The position numbers were made by a program, and so were the translations under genes. A stretch of DNA of 64,000 nucleotides, from assembly GCA_030373505.1 (NCBI GenBank), contig JAUCYS010000004.1, positions 124,001-188,000 of the forward strand, written 5' to 3'. The DNA comes from Parasphingorhabdus sp. (GTDB taxonomy: Bacteria > Pseudomonadota > Alphaproteobacteria > Sphingomonadales > Sphingomonadaceae). Below, piece after piece: positions 1-43,328 of the stretch. The notes beneath the pieces were generated by a model. It was not told the DNA's origin. It saw only the letters and a list, made by a program, of their open reading frames with translations, and did not search any database. The first letter of the stretch is position 1. Each line of letters begins with the position of its first letter.

Positions 1-1083
1 AATCGCGACAAAGGCCCGCGCCACCGCCCGCAGATAGGACATCGCATTGCCATTGGCGGGCGAAAGCAGGGTCGAGGGCGGCTCCCATCCGGTCAGCGCC
101 GGATCGCCATTTTCCGCGCGCTGCTTCCAGTCGTTCCAGCAATGGGCATCGAACAGCTCGTAGGACAGCGAGAGGATCACCGAAAAACCCATGGCCTCGG
201 CGCGTGAAATCAGATCGCGATGCCACACCACCGTCGGCTGGTTGATCGCTGCAAATTCCTCACCCACCTGAGGCGCGGACAGGCTGACATAAAGCCCCTC
301 GCCGACCGTCTCCAGCCGGAAATAATGGCTCATGCCCAGATAATGGTTGATCGACCCGCGATAGCCCAGAGCCCGGACCGTCCGCAGCAGCCGTTCCGGC
401 GTCTGGTTGAAACTGTCATCATAAGCGGTGGCCATCGCCAGGCCATGTTCCGGCACCATGATATCGCCAATCTCAAGCACCGCGCCCTGGCCGTCGGTCC
501 GAATCTCGCTCATCTCGACCCAGCCGACCCTCGGCGTGGCAAAGCGCGTACCCATCCCGTCATAATCCGGCGGAATGATCGAGACAAACAGCCGGTCGAT
601 ATCCTCCGGAAACACCGGGTCGGCTTCGCCCGGTAACAGAAACCCGCCATCGAGCGCCGAAAATTCGATCGAAACCAGCGCATCCGTCGGCGTGCCGCTG
701 GCATAGTTCCACAGCCTTATATACCAGCTCTTGGGCTCGCCCGCCGCATCCCGGCCCTCGATCGTCAGCGTCGGCCCGTTGATCGCATCCAGCGGCATGA
801 TCCCGGAAGAGCGCCAGCGAAAGTGCCAGCTCAGCCGCGCATAGTCGCGCAATGTTTCATAGGCGAGCAGCGGATGATCCAGCCCGTCCTCGCTCTCCCA
901 GATCAGCCCGGCCAGCTCGTCGCTGTTATAGAAAACCGCATCCACCCGCAGCGCATCCGGTGCCGTCGTCACCACCGACGCCATCATCGGCCGCGGGAAA
1001 TTGATCGTCCAGAAACGCGGATCAAAGCGCTGAATGTAGCTGCTTTGCTGCCCCGTCCTTTTGTCCGCCAGCCAGAATCCCAT
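1..1083 (-). CDS. GTA/phage tail protein (position of RcGTA g12), partial, runs off left edge
   Basis: Open minus-strand frame from ATG at 1083 (MGFWLADKRTGQQSSYIQRFDPRFWTINFPRPMMASVVTTAPDALRVDAVFYNSDELAGLIWESEDG...) with no stop to position 1; absent from the ORF track because it is open at the edge; directly follows the tape measure gene. Confidence 0.85.
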   Translation of the reverse strand, partial: MGFWLADKRTGQQSSYIQRFDPRFWTINFPRPMMASVVTTAPDALRVDAVFYNSDELAGLIWESEDGLDHPLLAYETLRDYARLSWHFRWRSSGIMPLDAINGPTLTIEGRDAAGEPKSWYIRLWNYASGTPTDALVSIEFSALDGGFLLPGEADPVFPEDIDRLFVSIIPPDYDGMGTRFATPRVGWVEMSEIRTDGQGAVLEIGDIMVPEHGLAMATAYDDSFNQTPERLLRTVRALGYRGSINHYLGMSHYFRLETVGEGLYVSLSAPQVGEEFAAINQPTVVWHRDLISRAEAMGFSVILSLSYELFDAHCWNDWKQRAENGDPALTGWEPPSTLLSPANGNAMSYLRAVARAFVAI

Positions 1084-1084
1084 A

Positions 1085-1660
1085 TCAGCCCGCCTTTGCC
1101 GTCAGCGCCTGGCGCACCGCCCGCGCCATCTGCCGGCTGGAGCGCCGGATCTGCTCGGGCGCGCTGGCCTGGCCGTGATCGGAAATATGGATGGTCATCC
1201 GGATATTGGGGGCCATCGCGACCGGTGCGACCGGTTCGATCCGCCCGGCAGCGGTCGGCACAAAGACTTCCGGCCCCCGCTCGCCGACCCGATAGGCCCG
1301 CCCGCCGGTCACCGGTCCCCCGGTCGCTCGCCCCGGTGCCCCGGCAAAGGCGGACAGCAGCGAGGCACCAAGCTGCACGAGCCCGCCGCCGGAACCACCA
1401 AACAGGCTGTTCAGCCCGCTGTTGATTGAGGCCCGGGCGATATCATTCATTACCGACAGCGCCACCCGCCGCAAATCCTCGAAATCCAGCGACCCGCGCC
1501 GGATCGCCCGGCTCAGCGTATTTTCCAGCACCGATCCCGCCCGCTCCAGCCCCGAAGCAAAGGGACCATCCAGCTGCCCCTTCATCTCCGCCACATCCCT
1601 CGCAAAACCGGTGGTATCCGCGCGCACGCTGACCACCAGCCGTTCGATTTCCTCATCCAT
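1085..1660 (-). CDS. GTA tape measure protein (RcGTA g11-like, short), 191 aa
   Basis: ORF with C-terminal GRAYRVGERGPEVFVPTAAGRI typical of GTA/lambda-like tape measure C-termini; syntenic position. Confidence 0.85.
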   Translation of the reverse strand: MDEEIERLVVSVRADTTGFARDVAEMKGQLDGPFASGLERAGSVLENTLSRAIRRGSLDFEDLRRVALSVMNDIARASINSGLNSLFGGSGGGLVQLGASLLSAFAGAPGRATGGPVTGGRAYRVGERGPEVFVPTAAGRIEPVAPVAMAPNIRMTIHISDHGQASAPEQIRRSSRQMARAVRQALTAKAG

Positions 1661-1823
1661 CGGGAAAGGTCTCTTTCAGTTGTTTTAGTTGTTGCGCGTC
1701 CAGGGGGACAGCGGGTTGATGGTCCGCATCGCTGCCCGAGAAGGCCGCAAATATGGTCGCCAGCTCGGCGGGCGTCGCGCGCCAGAATCGATCGGGCGTC
1801 CAGCCAAGTGTCGCGGATAACAT
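1653..1823 (-). CDS. Phage tail assembly chaperone (GTA g10.1/rcc01693-like); N-terminus uncertain
   Basis: Motif LGWTPDRFWRATPAELATIFAAFSG; ORF extends upstream to 1997 only through a palindromic repeat; first internal ATG at 1823. Confidence 0.7.
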   Translation of the reverse strand: MLSATLGWTPDRFWRATPAELATIFAAFSGSDADHQPAVPLDAQQLKQLKETFPDG

Positions 1824-1857
1824 GCCGGCGAGTTTTTGTGTTGTGGTGGAGAAATCA

Positions 1858-1990
1858 CTGTGCCCCTGCGCAGGGCGCAGACGACGAAAGCTCCGGGGGA
1901 GCTTTCCAAAGTCGAGCGGCCCATCTCGAGAGCCATCGTCAACCCAACCAGCGGGAGATGGACTCCCGCCTTCGCGGGAGAACAGCTCGC
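1858..1990. repeat. Palindromic repeat family A (TGCCCCTGCGCAGGGCGCAG...GAGATGG...CGCGGG)
   Basis: Shares long blocks with 2738-2946, 6672-6808 (inverted) and 8094-8280. Confidence 0.85.
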
Positions 1991-1993
1991 CTC

Positions 1994-2317
1994 TCACCCC
2001 TCCCCCACCCCCGATAAAATCTGCCTGAGCAAAATCTTCAGCGCCGGCGTCACCCCCGCCAGCCCCAGCCGCATCATCCCTTCGCCCAACGCCTCCCGCG
2101 TCAGCACCTCCGGCCGCTCCCGCACCACATGCCAGAACAGGGTCACAATCTCCGCCAGCAACAGCCGGCCGCCAGCGGCCCGCTCGACCAGATCGAACAG
2201 GGACCCCAGTTCCTCTTCCGCCGCCACCAGCGCCGCAAAAGTGGGTCGCAGCACGATCCGCTTGCCGTCAATGACCAGCTCCGCTTCGCCGCGCAGCCGA
2301 TTGGCCGGCTCAGACAT
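1994..2317 (-). CDS. GTA gp10-family protein, 107 aa
   Basis: MSEPANRLRGEAELVIDGKRIVLRPTFAALVAAEEELGSLFDL..., typical of the GTA-gp10 family. Confidence 0.85.
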   Translation of the reverse strand: MSEPANRLRGEAELVIDGKRIVLRPTFAALVAAEEELGSLFDLVERAAGGRLLLAEIVTLFWHVVRERPEVLTREALGEGMMRLGLAGVTPALKILLRQILSGVGEG

Positions 2318-2717
2318 GGACCACCGGCCCCGAGCTTTCGAGGCTCAGCGTATAGCTCCGCTCGCCATTATAATCCCCGCTATAGTCCAGCCGGGCGACC
2401 AGAAAATCGCCCCGCATCCGCTCGCCGCCCTCGAAGCTCAGCTCGTAACTGTCGATGACCCCGCTGAGCGCATGATTCTTGATCCGCATCTCCGCCTCCG
2501 ACCCGGTAAACACCCCGGCCCCGGACACCGACACCGAGCGGATGCCCGCACCCGACAACAGTTCCCGCCAGCCGCCGCTGTCCTTGCTGGTGATCGCCAC
2601 CGGCTCGCCATTGACTGTCATCTGCGTCGTCCTCAGCCCCGCGACCGTGCTATACACCGCCGGACTGCCGCCATCGCCAATCTTCAGGAGAAAGGCGCTG
2701 CCTTTTTCTGCTGCCAT
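2310..2717 (-). CDS. GTA phage major tail protein (g9, TP901-1 type), 135 aa
   Basis: MAAEKGSAFLLKIGDGGSPAVYSTVAGLRTTQMTVNGEPVAITSKDSGGWRELLSGAGIRS; syntenic position. Confidence 0.88.
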   Translation of the reverse strand: MAAEKGSAFLLKIGDGGSPAVYSTVAGLRTTQMTVNGEPVAITSKDSGGWRELLSGAGIRSVSVSGAGVFTGSEAEMRIKNHALSGVIDSYELSFEGGERMRGDFLVARLDYSGDYNGERSYTLSLESSGPVVHV

Positions 2718-2737
2718 ATTCTGGTTCCTTTATGTTG

Positions 2738-2946
2738 TGAGTGCCCCTGCGCAGGGCGCAGGCGACGAAAGCTCCGGGGGAGCTTTCCAAAGCCGAGCGG
2801 GCCATCTCGTGCCAGACCCAAACCGGCGCCCAGAGTGCCCCCGCGAAGGCGGGGGCCCATCTCGTGCCACTTCGTCTGGGCACAAAATATCGGTTGCTCG
2901 CAGCCGCTGGTTCACGAGATGGGCCCCTGCCTTCGCAGGGGCACTA
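2738..2946. repeat. Palindromic repeat family A (composite, with extra CCCCCGCGAAGGCGGGGGCCC and CCCCTGCCTTCGCAGGGGC hairpins)
   Basis: Near-identical GTGCCCCTGCGCAGGGCGCAGGCGACGAAAGCTCCGGGGGAGCTTTCCAAAGCCGAGCGGGCCATCTCGTGCC block. Confidence 0.9.
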
Positions 2947-3414
2947 GTTTTTCAAAACCTTCGCCCGATACTCGACCAGCCCGCTCCACGACCCCGCCGC
3001 CCGCCGCAAAATCCGCGTCCGCCGAAAATCAAACGTAACAATCTGCCACCCCGCCGGATCCTCCAGCCCCGGTTCCAGCGCTTCTTCAACCAGCGCCATC
3101 ACCCGGTGCAACCGCGCCGCCGTCTCGCCATCATCATGGACCGTCAAGGCCAGACTCAGCTCCCGGCCAACCCCGCCCTTGTGGCTCCAGTCGAGCGAAG
3201 CCCCGGTGGCCAGCGCGATATAGGGAAATTTCGCCCGCGGTGGCGGGCCGTCGAATATCCCGCTGATCAGTTCCATCAGCGCCGCATGTGCCTGCAGCCG
3301 TGCCACCAGCTGCCGCTGCACCGCTTCCAGCGCCCCGCTCACCGGACCGCTCGCAGCAGAAAGGGAATATCGCGCAGGCTGCTGTCCGCCAGCAACCGCG
3401 TCTTCAGCCGCCAC
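2944..3414 (-). CDS. DUF3168 family protein (GTA g8); true start probably nearer 3350
   Basis: GALEAVQRQLVARLQAHAALMELISGIFDGPPPRAKFPYIALATGASLDWSHKG; syntenic. Confidence 0.82.
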   Translation of the reverse strand: MAAEDAVAGGQQPARYSLSAASGPVSGALEAVQRQLVARLQAHAALMELISGIFDGPPPRAKFPYIALATGASLDWSHKGGVGRELSLALTVHDDGETAARLHRVMALVEEALEPGLEDPAGWQIVTFDFRRTRILRRAAGSWSGLVEYRAKVLKN

Positions 3415-3560
3415 CCGGCCAGCACGATCCCCTCGCCGGTTTCGCTGATCCGCACATCACCCGGCAATTCCGCCGCCAGCACCGCCCCAATCTCGGCTTT
3501 GGCCCGCCCGACCCGCCGTTCAGCCAGCGCCTCGCCGCGCATCCGCAACCGCTCCATCAT
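3339..3560 (-). CDS. Small conserved GTA-cluster ORF between g7 and g8
   Basis: In-frame MMERLRMRGEALAERRVGRAKAEIGAVLAAELPGDVRISETGEGIVLAGWRLKTRLLADSSLRDIPFLLRAVR; overlaps both neighbours as in a tight operon. Confidence 0.6.
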   Translation of the reverse strand: MMERLRMRGEALAERRVGRAKAEIGAVLAAELPGDVRISETGEGIVLAGWRLKTRLLADSSLRDIPFLLRAVR

Positions 3561-3883
3561 CTTGTTTCCTCCGCCAGCAAAATGGTTTTCGGGATCAGCC
3601 GGTGCTCCAGAACCACGCTCGCTATGACCATCACGCGCCCGGTCCAGAGCAACCGGTCCCCCGGTCTGATCGCCTGCGTCTCCCGCAAGACAAAGCGCCA
3701 GCGCGGCATCGCCGATCGGCTCTCCGCCTCGCTCCCCCGGCCCCCATGCAGCGCCTCTGCCGCCGCCCAATATTCGCCGACCGTATCAAACTGCGCCTCC
3801 GCCGAACCCAGCGCATCGCGCTCAGCGCTCTGCCGCTCGATCACGATCCGCTCGCGCAGGACCCCTGAAAATTCCCGTCCCAT
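3557..3883 (-). CDS. Phage head-tail adaptor/joining protein (GTA g7)
   Basis: MGREFSGVLRERIVIERQSAERDALGSAEAQFDTVGEYWAAAEALHG..., head-closure family pattern; ATG at 3883 overlaps g6 stop. Confidence 0.8.
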   Translation of the reverse strand: MGREFSGVLRERIVIERQSAERDALGSAEAQFDTVGEYWAAAEALHGGRGSEAESRSAMPRWRFVLRETQAIRPGDRLLWTGRVMVIASVVLEHRLIPKTILLAEETR

Positions 3884-4428
3884 CACGCCACCCGCATTCG
3901 CCGGAACGGTCGCCACAGCGCGGTCACCGCTCGCGGCGGCCCGGCCACATCGACGCCATCGCGATTGGCATAAAGATAGCCCGCCAGCCGCACGATCCCC
4001 TGCCGCAGCCCCGCCGGCAGCCCGTCCCAGTCCGCCGCCAGCCCGCAACTATATTTCACCCGGATGCGCGACGCATCGCTCTCCTCGCGCAGCCGCACCC
4101 AGCCCAGCCCCTCGCTGTCGATATCGATGGCATAGCCATCCACACCCAGCAGCGCCGCAGTCCCGTCCGCCTCCACCGTCTCGAACGAGACAATCGCCTG
4201 CACCGGCAGCCGCTTCAGCTTCTGCCAGGCCTGCCACGCCGGCAGGATATCGGTCACCGTCCGCACGATCAGCATCTGGCCGACAAAATCCTCGCACAGG
4301 CCGGCAGCGCTGCGCAGAAACATATCAATCGCATCATCATCGGCATCATGGTCGATCCGCACAAAGGCCTTCACCTCGGCGATCAGCGCGGCCGGCAGGG
4401 CCGGCCAGTCTGCAAGGGGGAAGCTCAC
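3883..4428 (-). CDS. Phage gp6-like head-tail connector (GTA g6), 181 aa
   Basis: LIAEVKAFVRIDHDADDDAIDMFLRSAAGLCEDFVGQMLIVRTVTDILPAW; classic connector N-terminus. Confidence 0.88.
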   Translation of the reverse strand: MSFPLADWPALPAALIAEVKAFVRIDHDADDDAIDMFLRSAAGLCEDFVGQMLIVRTVTDILPAWQAWQKLKRLPVQAIVSFETVEADGTAALLGVDGYAIDIDSEGLGWVRLREESDASRIRVKYSCGLAADWDGLPAGLRQGIVRLAGYLYANRDGVDVAGPPRAVTALWRPFRRMRVA

Positions 4429-4533
4429 GGTCGCGGCATCCTTTCATTAAATTTTCAGGAAAGTTGCGCCCGTGCCGGCGGGAGAAGGGGAGCAACCGGC
4501 ACGGACGCGCTGCGCCGAAGCGCAGCAAGGGCT

Positions 4534-5700
4534 TCAGGAAGCGCTGAACTGCATCAGCTTGATCGCCTCCGAATTCATCAGCTGCCCGCCAACGCGCCGG
4601 GTCGCGTAAAAATGGACAAACGGCTTGTTGGTGAACGGATCGCGCAAAATATGCGTCGCCCGCCGCTCGGCGATCAGATAGCCGGCGCGAAAATTGCCAA
4701 AAGCGATCGCCAGGCTGTCCGCCGCGATATCGGGCATATCCTCCGCCTCGACCACCGGATAGCCAAGCAGGGTCGCCGGCTGCCCGCTGGCCAGCGACGG
4801 CTGCCACAGAAACGCGCCGTCGGCGGTCTTGAACTTGCGGATCTGGGCCAGCGTGGAGCTGTTCATCACAAAACTGGCGCCCTGCCGGTAGGCGGGCCGC
4901 AACGTGTGCACCAGATCGACCAGCACATCCGCCCCGGCAAAATCCCCCGATGCCCCGGACGGCACATATTGCAGCGACCCAAACGCCCGGACATCATCGC
5001 TCTCGTCGGTCACCGCCGCATTGAGAAAACCGCGCGGCTGGTTGACCCCCGAGCCACTGACAAAGGCCGCACCCTCCGCCCGGGCAAATTCCCGCGCGAT
5101 CTCGTCGGCCAGCCAGGCCTCCACGTCAAAAGCCGCATCATCCAGCATCGCCTGCGACGCCGCCGGATTGGCATAAAGCTCGCCGCTCGGCGGCGCGATC
5201 TCGTTAAAGTCCGGCGTATCGGTCTCCGGCCGCCCGGCGGTCTCGCTGACCCAGCCCGACGGCGTACCGCCAGTGGTAACCAGCTTGCGATAGCCAGCGG
5301 TTCCCGTCTGCACCACGGTCGCAATCGAGCGGATCGGCGAAATATCCTTCAGCGTCGCCCCGATCAGCGCATCAATTTCCTGCGGCACGGCAAAACCGCC
5401 CTCGGGACCCGATGCGCCGGAAAAGCTCTTCAGCTCGACCCCCGCCTGCTCGCCGCGCCGGAGATATCTGGTAACAAAATCCAGCGCAGCCGGCGAAGCC
5501 GGCATCGCCCCATCAAGAGCAGGCCGCGCCGCAATCTTGCCGATCGCATCGACCTGCCCCTTCAGACCGTCGACATCGCCCCGCAACGCGGCAATCGCCT
5601 GGCCATGCTGCTCCGTTTCCTCGGCGATCAGCACCGCATCAAAAGACGCTTCCAGCGGATCCGCCTTGGTTTCGAGTGGGTTTTCGGGAGAGCGTTCCAT
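4534..5700 (-). CDS. HK97-type major capsid protein (GTA g5), 388 aa
   Basis: N-terminal delta-domain-like coiled region then KSFSGASGPEGGFAVPQEIDALIGATLKDISPIRSIATVVQTG...; terminal GLYATRRVGGQLMNSEAI-type end. Confidence 0.95.
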   Translation of the reverse strand: MERSPENPLETKADPLEASFDAVLIAEETEQHGQAIAALRGDVDGLKGQVDAIGKIAARPALDGAMPASPAALDFVTRYLRRGEQAGVELKSFSGASGPEGGFAVPQEIDALIGATLKDISPIRSIATVVQTGTAGYRKLVTTGGTPSGWVSETAGRPETDTPDFNEIAPPSGELYANPAASQAMLDDAAFDVEAWLADEIAREFARAEGAAFVSGSGVNQPRGFLNAAVTDESDDVRAFGSLQYVPSGASGDFAGADVLVDLVHTLRPAYRQGASFVMNSSTLAQIRKFKTADGAFLWQPSLASGQPATLLGYPVVEAEDMPDIAADSLAIAFGNFRAGYLIAERRATHILRDPFTNKPFVHFYATRRVGGQLMNSEAIKLMQFSAS

Positions 5701-5745
5701 ATCATTCCTTTCCTTGAGTTATCTTCAATTCGAAAATGGGAATCA

Positions 5746-5803
5746 CACGAGGACACAAAGCCACGACGTCAGAGCCGACGCTTTGTGCCTTTGTGTCTTC
5801 GTG
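5746..5803. repeat. Palindromic repeat family D (CACGAGGACACAAAG...CTTTGTGTCTTCGTG)
   Basis: 15-nt arms with one mismatch in gap between capsid and protease genes. Confidence 0.75.
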
Positions 5804-5811
5804 CGATAAAA

Positions 5812-6225
5812 TTACGGCGCTTGAACCAGATGCACCCGCGCCAGATCCTGCATCGGCGCCGTCACCAGCGAAATCTCCGCCACATCCAGCTCCAGCAATT
5901 CGCGCGGGTCGGCACCCGCCGCCCGCTTCACCCGATAGCCAAAACTGAGCCCCTTCACCCCGGCACCGGCTAGCATGGACGCAGCCTCCCGCCCGGCCCG
6001 CGTCGCGGTGGAAACCGTCCCGATAACCCGCAACCCGCGCCGGTCCTCGCGCACCAGATCCACCTGCCCGATCCGCCGCAACGGATCATGCTGCCACAAT
6101 AGCGGTAGGGACTGCCCTTCCGGAAAAGCCCCAAAGGCCCCGCGCCGAATGATATCCCCGCCCCGGTCGATCCGGTCAAAAATCGCCGCATAACCAGCAA
6201 AGCGCAGGGTGTTCGGGGTCTCCAT
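5812..6225 (-). CDS. HK97 family prohead protease (GTA g4)
   Basis: METPNTLRFAGYAAIFDRIDRGGDIIRRGAFGAF...LLWQHDPLRRIGQ...; listed ORF extends to 6447 only through repeats, ATG at 6225 preferred. Confidence 0.9.
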   Translation of the reverse strand: METPNTLRFAGYAAIFDRIDRGGDIIRRGAFGAFPEGQSLPLLWQHDPLRRIGQVDLVREDRRGLRVIGTVSTATRAGREAASMLAGAGVKGLSFGYRVKRAAGADPRELLELDVAEISLVTAPMQDLARVHLVQAP

Positions 6226-6227
6226 TC

Positions 6228-6352
6228 GTGCTGAGCCTGTCGAAGCACCGCCCGGTGAGATGTCCGTTAGCCCTGAGCCTGTCGAAGGGCGCCTCCCGTC
6301 CGAGAGGCGTGGTTCGACAAGCTCACCACTAACGGAAGATCGCACCCCCCTC
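6228..6352. repeat. Palindromic repeat family C (GTGCTGAGCCTGTCGAAGCAC; CCCTGAGCCTGTCGAAGGG; inverted GGTTCGACAAGCTCACC)
   Basis: Two direct and one inverted copy of the GAGCCTGTCGAA core between g3.5 and protease. Confidence 0.85.
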
Positions 6353-6659
6353 ACGACACCAGATGCCCCAGCCCCAGCCGCATCGCGATCCCGACCAGCA
6401 GCAGCGCCAGCACGCTCCGCACCACCCAGCGGATCACCGCCTTCCACGCGCTCGCCTTGGCATCGCGCCAGGCGCGCAGCAGCTCGCGCAATTCATCGAT
6501 ATCGTCCTGCGCCGTCGGATCGGCCAGCCCCAGCCGGTCGAGCACCCGCGCCGCCCCGCTGTCCGTTGCCTCCTCGACAATCGCCCGCAGCGTCACCAGA
6601 TCAGCCCCATCACCCTCCGCCTGAGCGATCAGGCGAGCGAGCATTTCCTCATTGTTCAT
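6351..6659 (-). CDS. GTA g3.5-like small protein with C-terminal TM segment, 102 aa
   Basis: Position between portal and protease; C-terminus VVRSVLALLLVGIAMRLGLGHLVS. Confidence 0.6.
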   Translation of the reverse strand: MNNEEMLARLIAQAEGDGADLVTLRAIVEEATDSGAARVLDRLGLADPTAQDDIDELRELLRAWRDAKASAWKAVIRWVVRSVLALLLVGIAMRLGLGHLVS

Positions 6660-6671
6660 ATCATGTCCTTA

Positions 6672-6808
6672 TTGGGCACTGTGCTCCTGCGAAGGCAGGA
6701 GCCCATCTCCTGCATTCCGTTCAACCGCACTGGCACGAGATGGACCGCTCGACTTCAGAAAGCTTTGGGGAAGCTTTCTGAAGTCTGCGCCCTGCGCAGG
6801 GGAACAAA
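6672..6808. repeat. Palindromic repeat family A, inverted orientation
   Basis: TGCTCCTGCGAAGGCAGGAGC...GAGATGGACCGCTCGACTTCAGAAAGCTTTGGGGAAGCTTTCTGAAGTCTGCGCCCTGCGCAGGGG. Confidence 0.85.
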
Positions 6809-6816
6809 GCCGCTAA

Positions 6817-7953
6817 TCACACTCCCAGCATCGCCCGTTTCTCTTCTGGTGACAGAAAATCTGCCTCGCAGACCTGCTTCCACAGCCGCTCGCGATCCTC
6901 CGACAAAGCCGGGATCTGATCCCGGTCCACCGCTAGCGCGACCTCGGGCCACCAGCCCCGCAGCGCCTCCGCCAGCCCGGCCAATATCTTCCCCGCCAGC
7001 GGCAAGATCGTCAGCCGCCACAGCGCCCGGTTGGCCTCGCGATAATTGGCGTAACTATTGTCGCCGGGCAGCCCGAGCAGCATCGGCGGCACGCCAAAGG
7101 CCAAAGCAATCTCCCGCGCCGCCGCTTCCTTGAGCGCGACAAAATCCATATCCGCCGGGCTCAGGCTCATCGACTGCCATTTCAGCCCGCCCTCAAGCAG
7201 CATCGGCCGTCCCGCATTGCCCGACCCGGCAAAGCTCGCCTCCATCTCCGCCTTCAACCGGTCAAACTGCTCCCCGGTCAGCGCCGACCCTTCAACGCCG
7301 GGATCATAGACCAGCGCCCCCGATGGCCGCGCCGCATTGTCCAATATCGCCTTGTTCCACTTCGCTGCTGCATTGTGCACCGCCACCGCCTTCGCCGCGG
7401 CACCGAGACAGCCCAGCCCATAATGGTCATCGGTCGGATGAAAGGCCTTGATATGGATAATCGCCGCTCGCCCCGTCGCGTCCTGCGCGGCCAGGCGCGT
7501 GACATGCTCTCCGGCCCGGTAGATATAGGCCACCGGCCAGCCCTTGCCATCCGGCTCCACCGTCACCCGGTCCGGGCGCAGCGCATAAAGCTCATCCGGC
7601 CGGCCATCGCCGCCGCCGATAATCTGGACATAGCCATTGCCATGCAGCAGCAAATGCGCCGCGATCGTTTCCAGCAGCGACTGGCCAGCGCTGCTCGTCT
7701 GCACCAGCGCCGCCACCCGCTCGTCCACCGGCAACAGCGGCGCTCCGCCAACCCCCTCGGCAACAATCCGCACCGCGCGCTGGGCAATGGCATTCTCGAC
7801 ATAGGCTTCGCGCACCCGCCCCTCATATGAAAATGGCGCGTCCCCCGAAAGAGCCGCGCCACCATAAGTGCCGATATAGGACCGCCCCAAAGGGGGCCGC
7901 ACCGATCCACCCCCGCCCTTGAAGGCAAGCGCGATATTGTTCCACAATGTCAT
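6817..7953 (-). CDS. HK97 family portal protein (GTA g3)
   Basis: MTLWNNIALAFKGGGGSVRPPLGRSYIGTYGG...AFGVPPMLLGLPGDNSYANYREANRALWR; upstream 71 codons of the listed ORF are repeat-derived. Confidence 0.93.
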   Translation of the reverse strand: MTLWNNIALAFKGGGGSVRPPLGRSYIGTYGGAALSGDAPFSYEGRVREAYVENAIAQRAVRIVAEGVGGAPLLPVDERVAALVQTSSAGQSLLETIAAHLLLHGNGYVQIIGGGDGRPDELYALRPDRVTVEPDGKGWPVAYIYRAGEHVTRLAAQDATGRAAIIHIKAFHPTDDHYGLGCLGAAAKAVAVHNAAAKWNKAILDNAARPSGALVYDPGVEGSALTGEQFDRLKAEMEASFAGSGNAGRPMLLEGGLKWQSMSLSPADMDFVALKEAAAREIALAFGVPPMLLGLPGDNSYANYREANRALWRLTILPLAGKILAGLAEALRGWWPEVALAVDRDQIPALSEDRERLWKQVCEADFLSPEEKRAMLGV

Positions 7954-7977
7954 GTTATTTCCTTGGTTCCGCAAGAT

Positions 7978-8055
7978 TGTGCTCCGCACTTGATGCGGAG
8001 CCCTCTCGGCGTTCAGTTTCCAACCTCCAGAGCTCCGCATCAAGTGCGGAGCACA
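7978..8055. repeat. Palindromic repeat family B, perfect 23-bp inverted repeat
   Basis: TGTGCTCCGCACTTGATGCGGAG (7978-8000) / CTCCGCATCAAGTGCGGAGCACA (8033-8055). Confidence 0.9.
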
Positions 8056-8093
8056 TAAACGATTACGTTCCGCTAAAGCATCGCCGCCTGCCG

Positions 8094-8280
8094 TGCCCCT
8101 GCGCAGGGCGCAGGCGACGAAAGCTTCCCCAAAGCTTTCTAAAGCCGAGCGGCCCATCTCGTGCACCGGTTTAGCTGCGCCTGAGAAGTGGCGAGCGCCT
8201 GTCTCAAATCTTGGCGCAAACCAGCACCATTGCGAATGACGAGAAGCCTCGAGATGGGCCCCTGCCTGCGCAGGGGCACA
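8094..8280. repeat. Palindromic repeat family A
   Basis: GTGCCCCTGCGCAGGGCGCAGGCGACGAAAGCTTCCCCAAAGCTTTC...GAGATGGGCCCCTGCCTGCGCAGGGGCAC. Confidence 0.88.
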
Positions 8281-9669
8281 CTACCGCACCCTCGGCACCC
8301 GCTCTTTGCCCAACATCAGCTCGGTCAATGCCCACACCAGCGCATCCGCCCGGTCCGGCGACCGGCCCGGCCCGGCATAGCCACCGCCGATCAGCAACCC
8401 GCACAATTCGTCCTCGAGCTGCGGAAACGCACCAACATGATGCACCCGCCCATTCTCATACAGCGCCGCCACCGGTTCCGCTCGCGCGACCTTGCCGCGC
8501 GCCGCATGAACCAGCTTGACTGGCAGCGAAATCTTCGCCGCGTGCAGCACCGATTTCACCATCGCTCCGCCCTGATTGGCCTCGGCGATCACCCGGTCTG
8601 CGCCCCACAAATCCGCAGCCCGCGCCACCGCTCGCGCCCATATCTCCGGCCGCGCCTTTTCCACGCTGGCATCGGCCAGCACATAGGCCTCACCGTCCCG
8701 GCCCAGCCCCGCAACGACAATCCCGCAGGCATCTCCGTGCGCCGACGCCGGCGGATCGACCCCGATGACAATACGAACCAGGCCCTCCCCCCGTTCGTCT
8801 CGAGCGCAGTCGAGAGACCTCTTCGGACTGGCACCAGTGTCTCGACTCCGCTCGACACGAACGGCACCAACCCGGCACCCCTCAATCATCGCCCTGGTCC
8901 ATAACGCGCCTTCCAGATCCTCGATCAGCTCCCCGTCCAGCTCCTGCCGCCCCAGCCGGGTGCCGCCATAATCCGCCGCCATCGCGGTCAGAAACGCCAC
9001 CGGCAGATGCAGATCATTGTCATGCGTCCGCCCCCTGCTGATCACCACATCTTCGGCGCCGACCAGCTCCCGCACCAGCGCCACCGGTCGCGGCGTCGTG
9101 GTTGCCACGATCTGCGGCCGGAAGCCAAGGCGCAGGCCCATTTTCAGATTGTCCCAGGCCGCTTCCGCCTGCCCGCTATTGTTCATCCACTTGGCAATTT
9201 CGTCGCACCACGAGTGACTATGCTGGGGACCCCGCAAGCCCTCGGGTTCCGCTGCCGAATAAAGATGCGCCTGCGCGCCACTTGCCCAGCTCAGCCGCTT
9301 CAGCGACGGTTCCCAGACCGGCCGCTGCTTCGGCGGCGCGATCGACAGCAGACCGCTTTCGCCTTCGACCATCACCGTGCGGGTCTCGGCATAATTGGCT
9401 CCGACCAGAGCAAAGCGGGCGCTGCCATCGCTCTCGGCGATGCTGCGCACCCATTCCGCTCCGGCCCTAGTCTTGCCAAAGCCGCGCCCGGCCATGATCA
9501 GCCAGACCGACCAGTTGCCGTCCGGCGGCATTTGCTCCGGCCGTGCCCAGAACGGCCAGTGATGGAGAATGGCCCGCTGTTCCTGATCGCTCAGCGACGC
9601 GAAAAGCGCCTTGCGATGCCGCGGCTGCAAGCGGGCAATATATTCCGCGTCGCTGCCTTCATTCCTCAT
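8281..9669 (-). CDS. Terminase large subunit, GTA type (g2), 462 aa, with repeat-encoded insertion
   Basis: WLIMAGRGFGKTRAGAEWVRS (Walker A), VIGVDPPASAHGDACGIVVAGLG nuclease region. Confidence 0.95.
   Translation of the reverse strand: MRNEGSDAEYIARLQPRHRKALFASLSDQEQRAILHHWPFWARPEQMPPDGNWSVWLIMAGRGFGKTRAGAEWVRSIAESDGSARFALVGANYAETRTVMVEGESGLLSIAPPKQRPVWEPSLKRLSWASGAQAHLYSAAEPEGLRGPQHSHSWCDEIAKWMNNSGQAEAAWDNLKMGLRLGFRPQIVATTTPRPVALVRELVGAEDVVISRGRTHDNDLHLPVAFLTAMAADYGGTRLGRQELDGELIEDLEGALWTRAMIEGCRVGAVRVERSRDTGASPKRSLDCARDERGEGLVRIVIGVDPPASAHGDACGIVVAGLGRDGEAYVLADASVEKARPEIWARAVARAADLWGADRVIAEANQGGAMVKSVLHAAKISLPVKLVHAARGKVARAEPVAALYENGRVHHVGAFPQLEDELCGLLIGGGYAGPGRSPDRADALVWALTELMLGKERVPRVR
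8791..8864. repeat. Palindromic repeat family E inside terminase ORF
   Basis: CCGTTCGTCTCGAGCGCAGTCGAGAGAC...GTGTCTCGACTCCGCTCGACACGAACGG; encodes RSRDTGASPKRSLDCARDERG. Confidence 0.85.
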
Positions 9670-10135
9670 TATCGGAGACCGGTGGTGTTTCCTCCCGCTC
9701 CCGCCCGAGCAGCTTCGTCCGCATATCCGCCAGTTTCCTGTCGAGATCGGCGCGCACCTGCTCTGGGTTGATATCCTCCTCCGCCGCGCGGATCAGCGCG
9801 ACCATCTGCTTGTGGGCCAGCAGCAATTTGATCCCGACCCCGTCATTATAGTGTCTGACCGTCGCCACCTCTTTTCCATCGTGGAAAACGGGTTTCTCGA
9901 CGCCGTTGCGCGCGCGCTCGAGCATATCCATTTCGAGCAGCTCGTAGCCCGCCGCCAGCGAGCGCATCCATGCCCGAAAGAAATCCGGATCGCGCTCGCG
10001 CCACAGATAGACGGTCGATACCGCAACCCCGGCGACGGCTGCCGAATTCGCCACATGCGAACTGATCGCCAGCTCTTTCAGAAATTTCAGCTTGCGCCTG
10101 TCGTCAAATAATCCCCTGACTTCCGATTTTGCCAT
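9659..10135 (-). CDS. GTA small terminase-like protein (g1), 158 aa
   Basis: HTH-like AAVAGVAVSTVYLWRERDPDFFRAWMRS; first gene of GTA cluster, overlaps terminase start. Confidence 0.75.
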   Translation of the reverse strand: MAKSEVRGLFDDRRKLKFLKELAISSHVANSAAVAGVAVSTVYLWRERDPDFFRAWMRSLAAGYELLEMDMLERARNGVEKPVFHDGKEVATVRHYNDGVGIKLLLAHKQMVALIRAAEEDINPEQVRADLDRKLADMRTKLLGREREETPPVSDNEE

Positions 10136-42022: not shown

Positions 42023-42676
42023 TTACAGCCGTCGCCCCGTCCAGACCACTCGGCCGATGATATTCACATTGTCGGCACTGACATCGTCCCAGTCGGGATA
42101 TTGCGGATTGTCGCTCCGTATCGAAAGCTTTCCGGACGGGCCCATGGCGACCCGCTTGACCAGAAGCACATCATCCATGCGCAGCACATATATGCCGTCG
42201 CGCAACGGTCGGGAAGCGGCCCCGTGATCGACCATGATGTCATCTCCATCGCCCAGAGTCGGAGCCATGGAGTCGCCATCGACCACAATCAGCGACAGAT
42301 CGGCCGGATCGGCACCCAGCCGCCGGATCCATCTGGGGGCAAAGCCCATCGATTCAGCATATTCGTCGTCCGCAAGCGATCCGGGACCGGCGGACGCGCC
42401 GACCTGCAATTGCCGGATTCGGAGCAGGCCATCTGGTCTCTCGCGCTTCTTTCGCGAAAATTCGCGGATGGCCGGCGCACCAAGCAGGCGCTCATCCACC
42501 CCGTAAAATTCGGCTAGTCGGCGACGGTCATCCTCATCCAGCTTCTTCGGCGAACCGCGCCGGATATATTGCTGGATATAGGCAGGATTTTTGCCAAGCA
42601 TTTTCGAGATCGCAGCGAAATCATGTCCGTTTTCACGGATCAGCTTCTCCAGATGGGTGCGCGGGTCATCGGTCAC
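42023..42676 (-). CDS. S24-family repressor (CI/LexA-like; HTH plus peptidase domain), GTG start, 217 aa
   Basis: N-terminal HTH region DFAAISKMLGKNPAYIQQYIRRG; ...GASAGPGS... (Ala-Gly); VDGDSMAPTLGDGD (Ser) and LLVKRVAM (Lys). Confidence 0.88.
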   Translation of the reverse strand: MTDDPRTHLEKLIRENGHDFAAISKMLGKNPAYIQQYIRRGSPKKLDEDDRRRLAEFYGVDERLLGAPAIREFSRKKRERPDGLLRIRQLQVGASAGPGSLADDEYAESMGFAPRWIRRLGADPADLSLIVVDGDSMAPTLGDGDDIMVDHGAASRPLRDGIYVLRMDDVLLVKRVAMGPSGKLSIRSDNPQYPDWDDVSADNVNIIGRVVWTGRRL

Positions 42677-42714
42677 AATTCCCTCTCTTTAGTCATATTG
42701 GCTGAAACTATCAA

Positions 42715-42767
42715 TAGGATTTTTCCTAGACATGTAGGAAATTTCATCTCAAATAGGAATTTCCCTA
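42715..42767. promoter_or_regulatory. Array of three operator-like palindromes, consensus TAGGA-N4-TCCTA
   Basis: TAGGA-TTTT-TCCTA (42715-42728), TAGGA-AATT-TCATC (42735-42748), TAGGA-ATTT-CCCTA (42754-42767), period 19-20 bp, in the gap between S24 repressor and divergent small ORF. Confidence 0.7.
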
Positions 42768-42805
42768 TTCAATGAGTCGTAGGACGACCAGCAGCGAGAA
42801 GGAGA

Positions 42806-43000
42806 TTGCCCATGCCATTGTTGCGAAAAATCGAGATATTCCTGAAGGAAACGAACATGGCATGGACAAGGTTCGGGCGGCTTGCCGTCCGCGATCCGCG
42901 CTTTGTTCAGGACCTGCGCAATGGTCGCGAGCCCGGGAAGACAGTTTCGGAACGGGTGGAACGCTTCATCAGCCTGTGGCGTGCTGATCATGTCAACTGA
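42806..43000 (+). CDS. Small putative HTH (Cro-like) protein, 64 aa
   Basis: MPMPLLRKIEIFLKETNMAWTRFGRLAVRDPRFVQDLRNGREPGKTVSERVERFISLW resembles lambda-repressor-like HTH; divergent from S24 repressor. Confidence 0.65.
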   Translation: MPMPLLRKIEIFLKETNMAWTRFGRLAVRDPRFVQDLRNGREPGKTVSERVERFISLWRADHVN

Positions 43001-43328
43001 GCTCAAAGGACGGACGGTTGTTCGACAATGGCCGGGCTCCGCGATTGCCAGCCAGATAAGAGCCCTTACCCGGAGCCGCGCCAGCGTCCGGTTTTACCGC
43101 GAACGCACCTGGGCTAGCGTCACCTTCTCGGGAATACGCTATGGCTTCTCTATTGAATATCCAGATACCGCCGATGCGGAAGCGCTGCGGAAATTGGCCC
43201 GTGCTCTACCCGAACACGAATTTGCCCTCCCCGGCTATTTTGTGGCCGATGCCGTGATCACGGATCAGTCGGCTTTGCGATTGACCCTCGACATCCTGAT
43301 AATCGCAGATCCGGTTAAGCCATCCTGA
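42990..43328 (+). CDS. Hypothetical protein translationally overlapping the small HTH ORF, 112 aa
   Basis: ATG 42990 overlaps upstream stop at 42998-43000; MSTELKGRTVVRQWPGSAIASQIRALTRSRASVRFYRERTW... Confidence 0.6.
   Translation: MSTELKGRTVVRQWPGSAIASQIRALTRSRASVRFYRERTWASVTFSGIRYGFSIEYPDTADAEALRKLARALPEHEFALPGYFVADAVITDQSALRLTLDILIIADPVKPS

Follow-up and report, generated by a model that had tools for sequence, protein, structure and literature searches.

The locus described here raises the question of whether a virus decision circuit has been retained by a bacterial host without its virus. It lies in a window (the whole stretch of DNA analyzed) of 64,000 nucleotides from Parasphingorhabdus sp., family Sphingomonadaceae (assembly GCA_030373505.1, contig JAUCYS010000004.1, positions 124,001 to 188,000, forward strand). 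In the ORF list of this window, the gene of an S24-family repressor (S24) is divergent from an overlapping pair of genes encoding a small helix-turn-helix (HTH) protein, SM, and a third protein, TH (Table 1).

Divergent S24 and SM genes outside a prophage

A preliminary description of this DNA had compared the locus to the CI/Cro switch of lambda and had placed it outside any recognizable prophage, and both statements are borne out. We found a divergent S24 protein with an HTH and cleavage residues, a small Cro-like HTH protein, and a conserved array of multiple operator sites. The flanking ORFs are chromosomal, encoding an MBL-fold hydrolase, a DUF1993 protein, and a member of the O-antigen ligase family, and their inspection revealed no prophage with integrase and structural genes around the module. 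The nearest phage-type genes seen form a GTA-type cluster about 33 kb from the module, at the left end of the window (1 to 9700), with a PF11367 tail gene at 2956 to 3312 and, as judged by eye, a terminase-like ORF at 8284 to 9669.

The S24 protein matches Pfam PF00717 (3e-18) and PHROG 4, transcriptional repressor (6e-40), and carries the active-site residues that had been read from its sequence, at A96-G97, S136, and K174. Of 34 S24 homologues, 33 keep these Ala-Gly, Ser, and Lys cleavage residues, and the remaining one is a fragment. The spacing of the start codon led us to consider a leaderless S24 transcript, which we do not claim.

All three ORFs of the preliminary description are present, with two of their sizes mended. 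SM has 62 amino acids instead of 64, starting at an ATG (42812) that follows AAGGAG and is kept in relatives, where the ORF list gives TTG at 42806. TH, read from an ATG that overlaps the SM stop codon, has 112 amino acids instead of the 148 of the mechanical ORF.

The HTH proposed for the small ORF is supported by its AlphaFold model, which predicts four helices in an XRE-type fold (pLDDT 91). Foldseek neighbors of this model include SinR, HipB, P22 c2, and 434 (E values 0.5 to 2.6, TM 0.6 to 0.7); the individual E values are weak, but the neighbors agree in kind. No Pfam, NCBIfam, or PHROGs family matches SM, its similarity to the S24 HTH by profile is weak (hhalign P 0.023 in one comparison, probability 2%), and PDB sequence searches with S24, SM, and TH returned nothing useful. 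SM is probably the Cro-like counterpart of S24, acting on the same operator array. Relatives of SM are found in other Alphaproteobacteria, several of them divergent from S24 genes. Tandem SM domains within a single protein also occur there (loci L070, L074, L077, L080, and L085), and the genes of three of these proteins (L077, L080, and L085) adjoin an S24 gene.

Table 1. Features of the S24-SM-TH module, in window coordinates
Feature	Position	Strand	Basis or remark
S24-family repressor, CI/LexA-like, with N-terminal HTH and C-terminal Peptidase_S24	42023..42676	-	Pfam, PHROG
Operator site 1, TAGGATTTTTCCTA	42715..42728	+	Exact TAGGA-N4-TCCTA
Operator core plus preceding T	42723-42739		Near-invariant intergenic sequence TTCCTAGACAWGTAGGA
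Operator core, TCCTAGACATGTAGGA (TCCTAGACAWGTAGGA)	42724..42739		Nearly invariant in family, about one per genome
Predicted SM-TH promoter (-35 TAGACA at 42727-42732, 17-bp spacer, -10-like hexamer at 42750-42755)	42727..42755	+	Inferred from column profile
Operator site 2, left half only (TAGGAAATTTCATC)	42735..42748	+	Two mismatches
Operator site 3, TAGGAATTTCCCTA	42754..42767	+	One mismatch; where some other genera have a LexA box
GANTC site, GAGTC within TGAGTCG	42774..42778		Sequence match to CcrM methylation site
SM, 62-aa Cro-like XRE-fold HTH protein	42812..43000	+	AlphaFold, Foldseek, conserved family A2
TH, 112 aa, putative output gene of the switch	42990..43328	+	Alignment A1, model, phage homologues

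A near-invariant operator core across the family

Three operator sites of the form TAGGA-N4-TCCTA had been read between the divergent genes. The array itself stands: three TAGGA-N4-TCCTA-like sites fall within 53 bp, such matches are not enriched window-wide (10 seen, 8.4 expected), and the exact site at 42715 has no second copy in the 3.1-Mb genome. The operator reading had been staked on conserved TAGGA repeats in orthologous loci, and the intergenic array is strongly conserved in relatives. The parse into three sites can be refined: the near-invariant core joins the right half of site 1 to the left half of site 2, making TCCTA-N6-TAGGA the most conserved unit, and the middle site is a half-site here, without its right half in the window's genus.

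The core is present in 308 of 401 mutually related, and hence not independent, genomes, with a single match in all but 7 of these, and it was found at the S24-SM-TH locus wherever checked. In genera without a core match, the operators may have diverged, as in genus g2. A search with TH found this protein in 313 of the same 401 Sphingomonadaceae genomes. All 30 loci fetched have S24, one of them only a fragment of it, and all except two have SM; in nearly every locus examined, the S24-SM-TH set is complete. In locus L210 (genome G259), S24 and the operator are kept and the SM frame ends after about 19 codons.

The 12 genomes compared closely have one strong operator match each, and a second operator copy was seen in only a few relatives, before other genes. 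A regulon of this repressor that includes the GTA promoter, as had been suggested, is unsupported because this genome has a single strong operator. A TAGGA site with one mismatch in front of gcrA was also rejected, being unconserved in relatives and within chance expectation.

The closest known systems are the lambdoid CI/Cro regions with 434- and P22-like operators, which share with the module a self-cleaving repressor divergent from a small HTH protein, as well as 14-bp dyads about 20 bp apart in a multi-site array over the rightward promoter. In contrast to these regions, the module is chromosomal, occurs nearly once per genome across the family without phage genes around it, and adds a conserved GANTC, a LexA box in some genera, and a phage-related output gene. 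No described equivalent of the module was found in the literature searched.

Promoter, LexA box, and GANTC element

We aligned 70 distinct segments on the core, all from related species and not independent samples. The resulting column profile predicts an SM-TH promoter whose -35 hexamer, TAGACA, sits inside the operator core. An A at core position +27 (window 42751), conserved at 1.6 bits over the 70 segments, corresponds to position 2 of a -10 hexamer placed 17 bp from TAGACA.

The motif GAAC-N7-GAAC is found in 14 of the 70 segments, compared to 0 to 2 for other spacings and a shuffle mean of 0.09. It is the other strand of GTTC-N7-GTTC, the LexA box of Caulobacter (PMC9578287, PMC12700426). 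The same motif precedes a UvrA-like ORF both in this genome and in genome G250 (L139 and L158), and the LexA-type box of the G250 module was recovered in a whole-genome site search too. The LexA box is absent from the window's promoter, and the window's genus, without a LexA box of its own, has a third TAGGA site instead. This third site is found in 18 of the 70 segments, the window among them, and never together with the LexA box in the same segment (0 of 70; hypergeometric 0.009, with kinship ignored). There has apparently been an evolutionary exchange at one promoter position between the repressor's own operator and a LexA box. With the alphaproteobacterial LexA/SOS regulon, the module shares the box at its promoter in these 14 relatives and the logic of damage control; it differs by the third S24-type site of the window's genus and by having a second cleavable repressor on top. 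At the level of sequence, the SOS link proposed in the preliminary description is supported by the cleavage residues in 33 of 34 homologues and by the LexA boxes that some relatives carry at this promoter.

GANTC is found in 67 of the 70 segments on the SM side, where 9.3 would be expected from same-length windows of the same loci and 29.6 from dinucleotide shuffles. All four bases occur at its middle position (G 29, T 29, A 25, C 12), and its flanks are conserved, with C and G around 63 of 94 sites and CGANTCG in 52 of 70 segments. The TGAGTCG of the window fits YGAKTCG, the extended GcrA motif (PMC7987155). With the GcrA-CcrM promoters of Caulobacter and Brevundimonas, the module has in common a conserved GANTC in extended form and a genome that codes for GcrA and a CcrM-type RAMA-domain protein. 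Most S24-SM loci outside the family are without GANTC. The conserved site may tie the promoter to CcrM methylation and hence to the cell cycle. However, GcrA targets have GANTC at the -10/-35 position, whereas the site of the module lies downstream of the predicted start, at about +12, which makes a factor other than CcrM/GcrA possible. Another protein that binds the CGANTCG palindrome would explain both this location and the conservation of flanks beyond GANTC. We regard such a binder as the lesser possibility, since the middle base is free, as that of a methylation site would be, and the element matches a published extended GcrA motif.

TH, the putative output protein

The preliminary description had recognized no function for the third ORF, a view that can now be refined, since the family of TH also occurs in prophages. 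TH carries the motifs WASxTFxGxRH and EFxxPGxxVAD (alignment A1), and its model (pLDDT 88) has an alpha-beta-beta-alpha-beta-beta fold. It falls into no Pfam, NCBIfam, or PHROGs family and has no experimentally known relative. As neither TH nor SM matches a family, the output of a widespread damage-type switch appears unstudied in the libraries and literature searched. The best structural neighbors of TH are phage tail proteins, the monocin cap and Listeria antigen B (Foldseek E values 2.7e-4 and 3.7e-4). A role as tail terminator was considered from the matches to this fold (monocin cap, DUF3168/PF11367) and the similar order of elements, but was rejected for want of sequence-profile support: TH has no Pfam match, PF11367 included, and hhalign against 22 PF11367 members gave probabilities of 0.2 to 0.4%.

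Outside Sphingomonadaceae, TH was not convincingly detected apart from viral contigs, 11 of which encode it. Most of these copies are directly upstream of, and overlap, a Mu Gam-like gene (PF07352), with HNH and terminase genes coming next; on one contig, SM, a 56-aa ORF, TH, and Gam are in one operon. Unlike these cassettes of sphingomonad prophages, the chromosomal module is without Gam. Where the order is stated, every named host in the best 80 TH loci belongs to Sphingomonadales, and in a TH tree, which is unrooted and weakly supported, the phage copies nest within the chromosomal diversity. The prophage neighborhood beside Mu Gam-like genes leads us to a tentative and rather doubtful guess that what TH acts on during damage is DNA ends, recombination, or some other function of the host. 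In genus g71, a TAG codon lies inside TH in two genomes (G194:C2:355509-355820 and G139:C17:96954-97271).

A probable domesticated switch and its alternatives

From the architecture, conservation, motifs, and phage links seen in the sequences, we infer a course of binding, cleavage, and methylation-dependent expression. The module is probably a domesticated phage-type CI/Cro switch, in which cleavage of S24 derepresses SM-TH and to which LexA has been added in some genera. In an unstressed cell, S24 would occupy TAGGA/TCCTA half-sites within reach of, and overlapping, the predicted promoter of SM-TH and keep this promoter off, with SM as the Cro partner, probably on the same array. Cleavage in the S24 family is RecA-dependent; upon DNA damage, active RecA would stimulate S24 self-cleavage at Ala96-Gly97, and the promoter would open for SM and TH to be made together. 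A LexA box at the same place would add direct SOS control in some genera, its place being taken by the third TAGGA site in the window's genus, and CcrM methylation at the GANTC slightly downstream may influence promoter activity. Such a switch would exemplify a virus decision circuit kept by nearly all members of a major family of environmental bacteria, in which it may link DNA damage directly to cell-cycle methylation. That the module is a core methylation-gated DNA-damage switch, in which a bistable decision on TH production is taken jointly by the cleavage of S24, by CcrM methylation at GANTC, and in some genera by LexA, we consider unlikely.

Also unlikely is an ordinary autoregulated S24/XRE stress regulator without bistability, in which S24 represses SM-TH and SM only fine-tunes. 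An operator that is nearly unique in each genome would suit such a regulator, as would the weak similarity between the SM and S24 HTH domains, with SM placed at the same sites by deduction. However, the divergent pair and the multi-site array match the CI/Cro design, and half-sites of the same array recur in phage-like and conjugative copies.

Copies of the elements elsewhere

The phage-like copy is on a Bradyrhizobium plasmid with phage-type genes, where S24 is divergent from SM and TAGGA half-sites are present. In genome G091, a second S24-SM pair (L165, 9342 to 14468) has the operator, a LexA box, and GATTC and lies between MobF-relaxase/coupling-protein-like and CBASS-like genes (cyclase-, E1/E2-, and JAB-like; by eye). 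This CBASS-like neighborhood, the small output protein under damage control, and the prophage homologues of TH next to Gam could all point to a three-part toxin-antitoxin-like or defense unit, with TH toxic to cell or phage and S24/SM in control, but we find this very unlikely for a near-universal core gene that is not patchy and for TH and SM proteins without a match in Pfam or NCBIfam. It is hardly credible that an old prophage has left a decaying, now functionless immunity region here, as phage-type regulators, prophage homologues of TH, the interrupted SM of L210 beside its S24 and operator, and the TAG codons in two g71 genomes might suggest. Decay would not preserve at least 15 of 16 core bases across hundreds of genomes, and most of the family has the module, its operator near-invariant, its cleavage residues intact, and its promoter changed in lineage-specific ways.

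The module also has promoter elements that recur apart from it. In genus g34, the operator, LexA box, and GANTC are repeated before an unlinked and unrelated gene of 92 to 100 aa (MGEPVYRASPGC...CPACDIRCAILAGEA; loci L209, L212, L215, L217, and L218), and the recurrence of this composite before a different small gene argues that its elements work together. At a further second locus, L214 (G009 C2), the core precedes the gene of a 172-aa protein and is accompanied by a degenerate LexA-like box.
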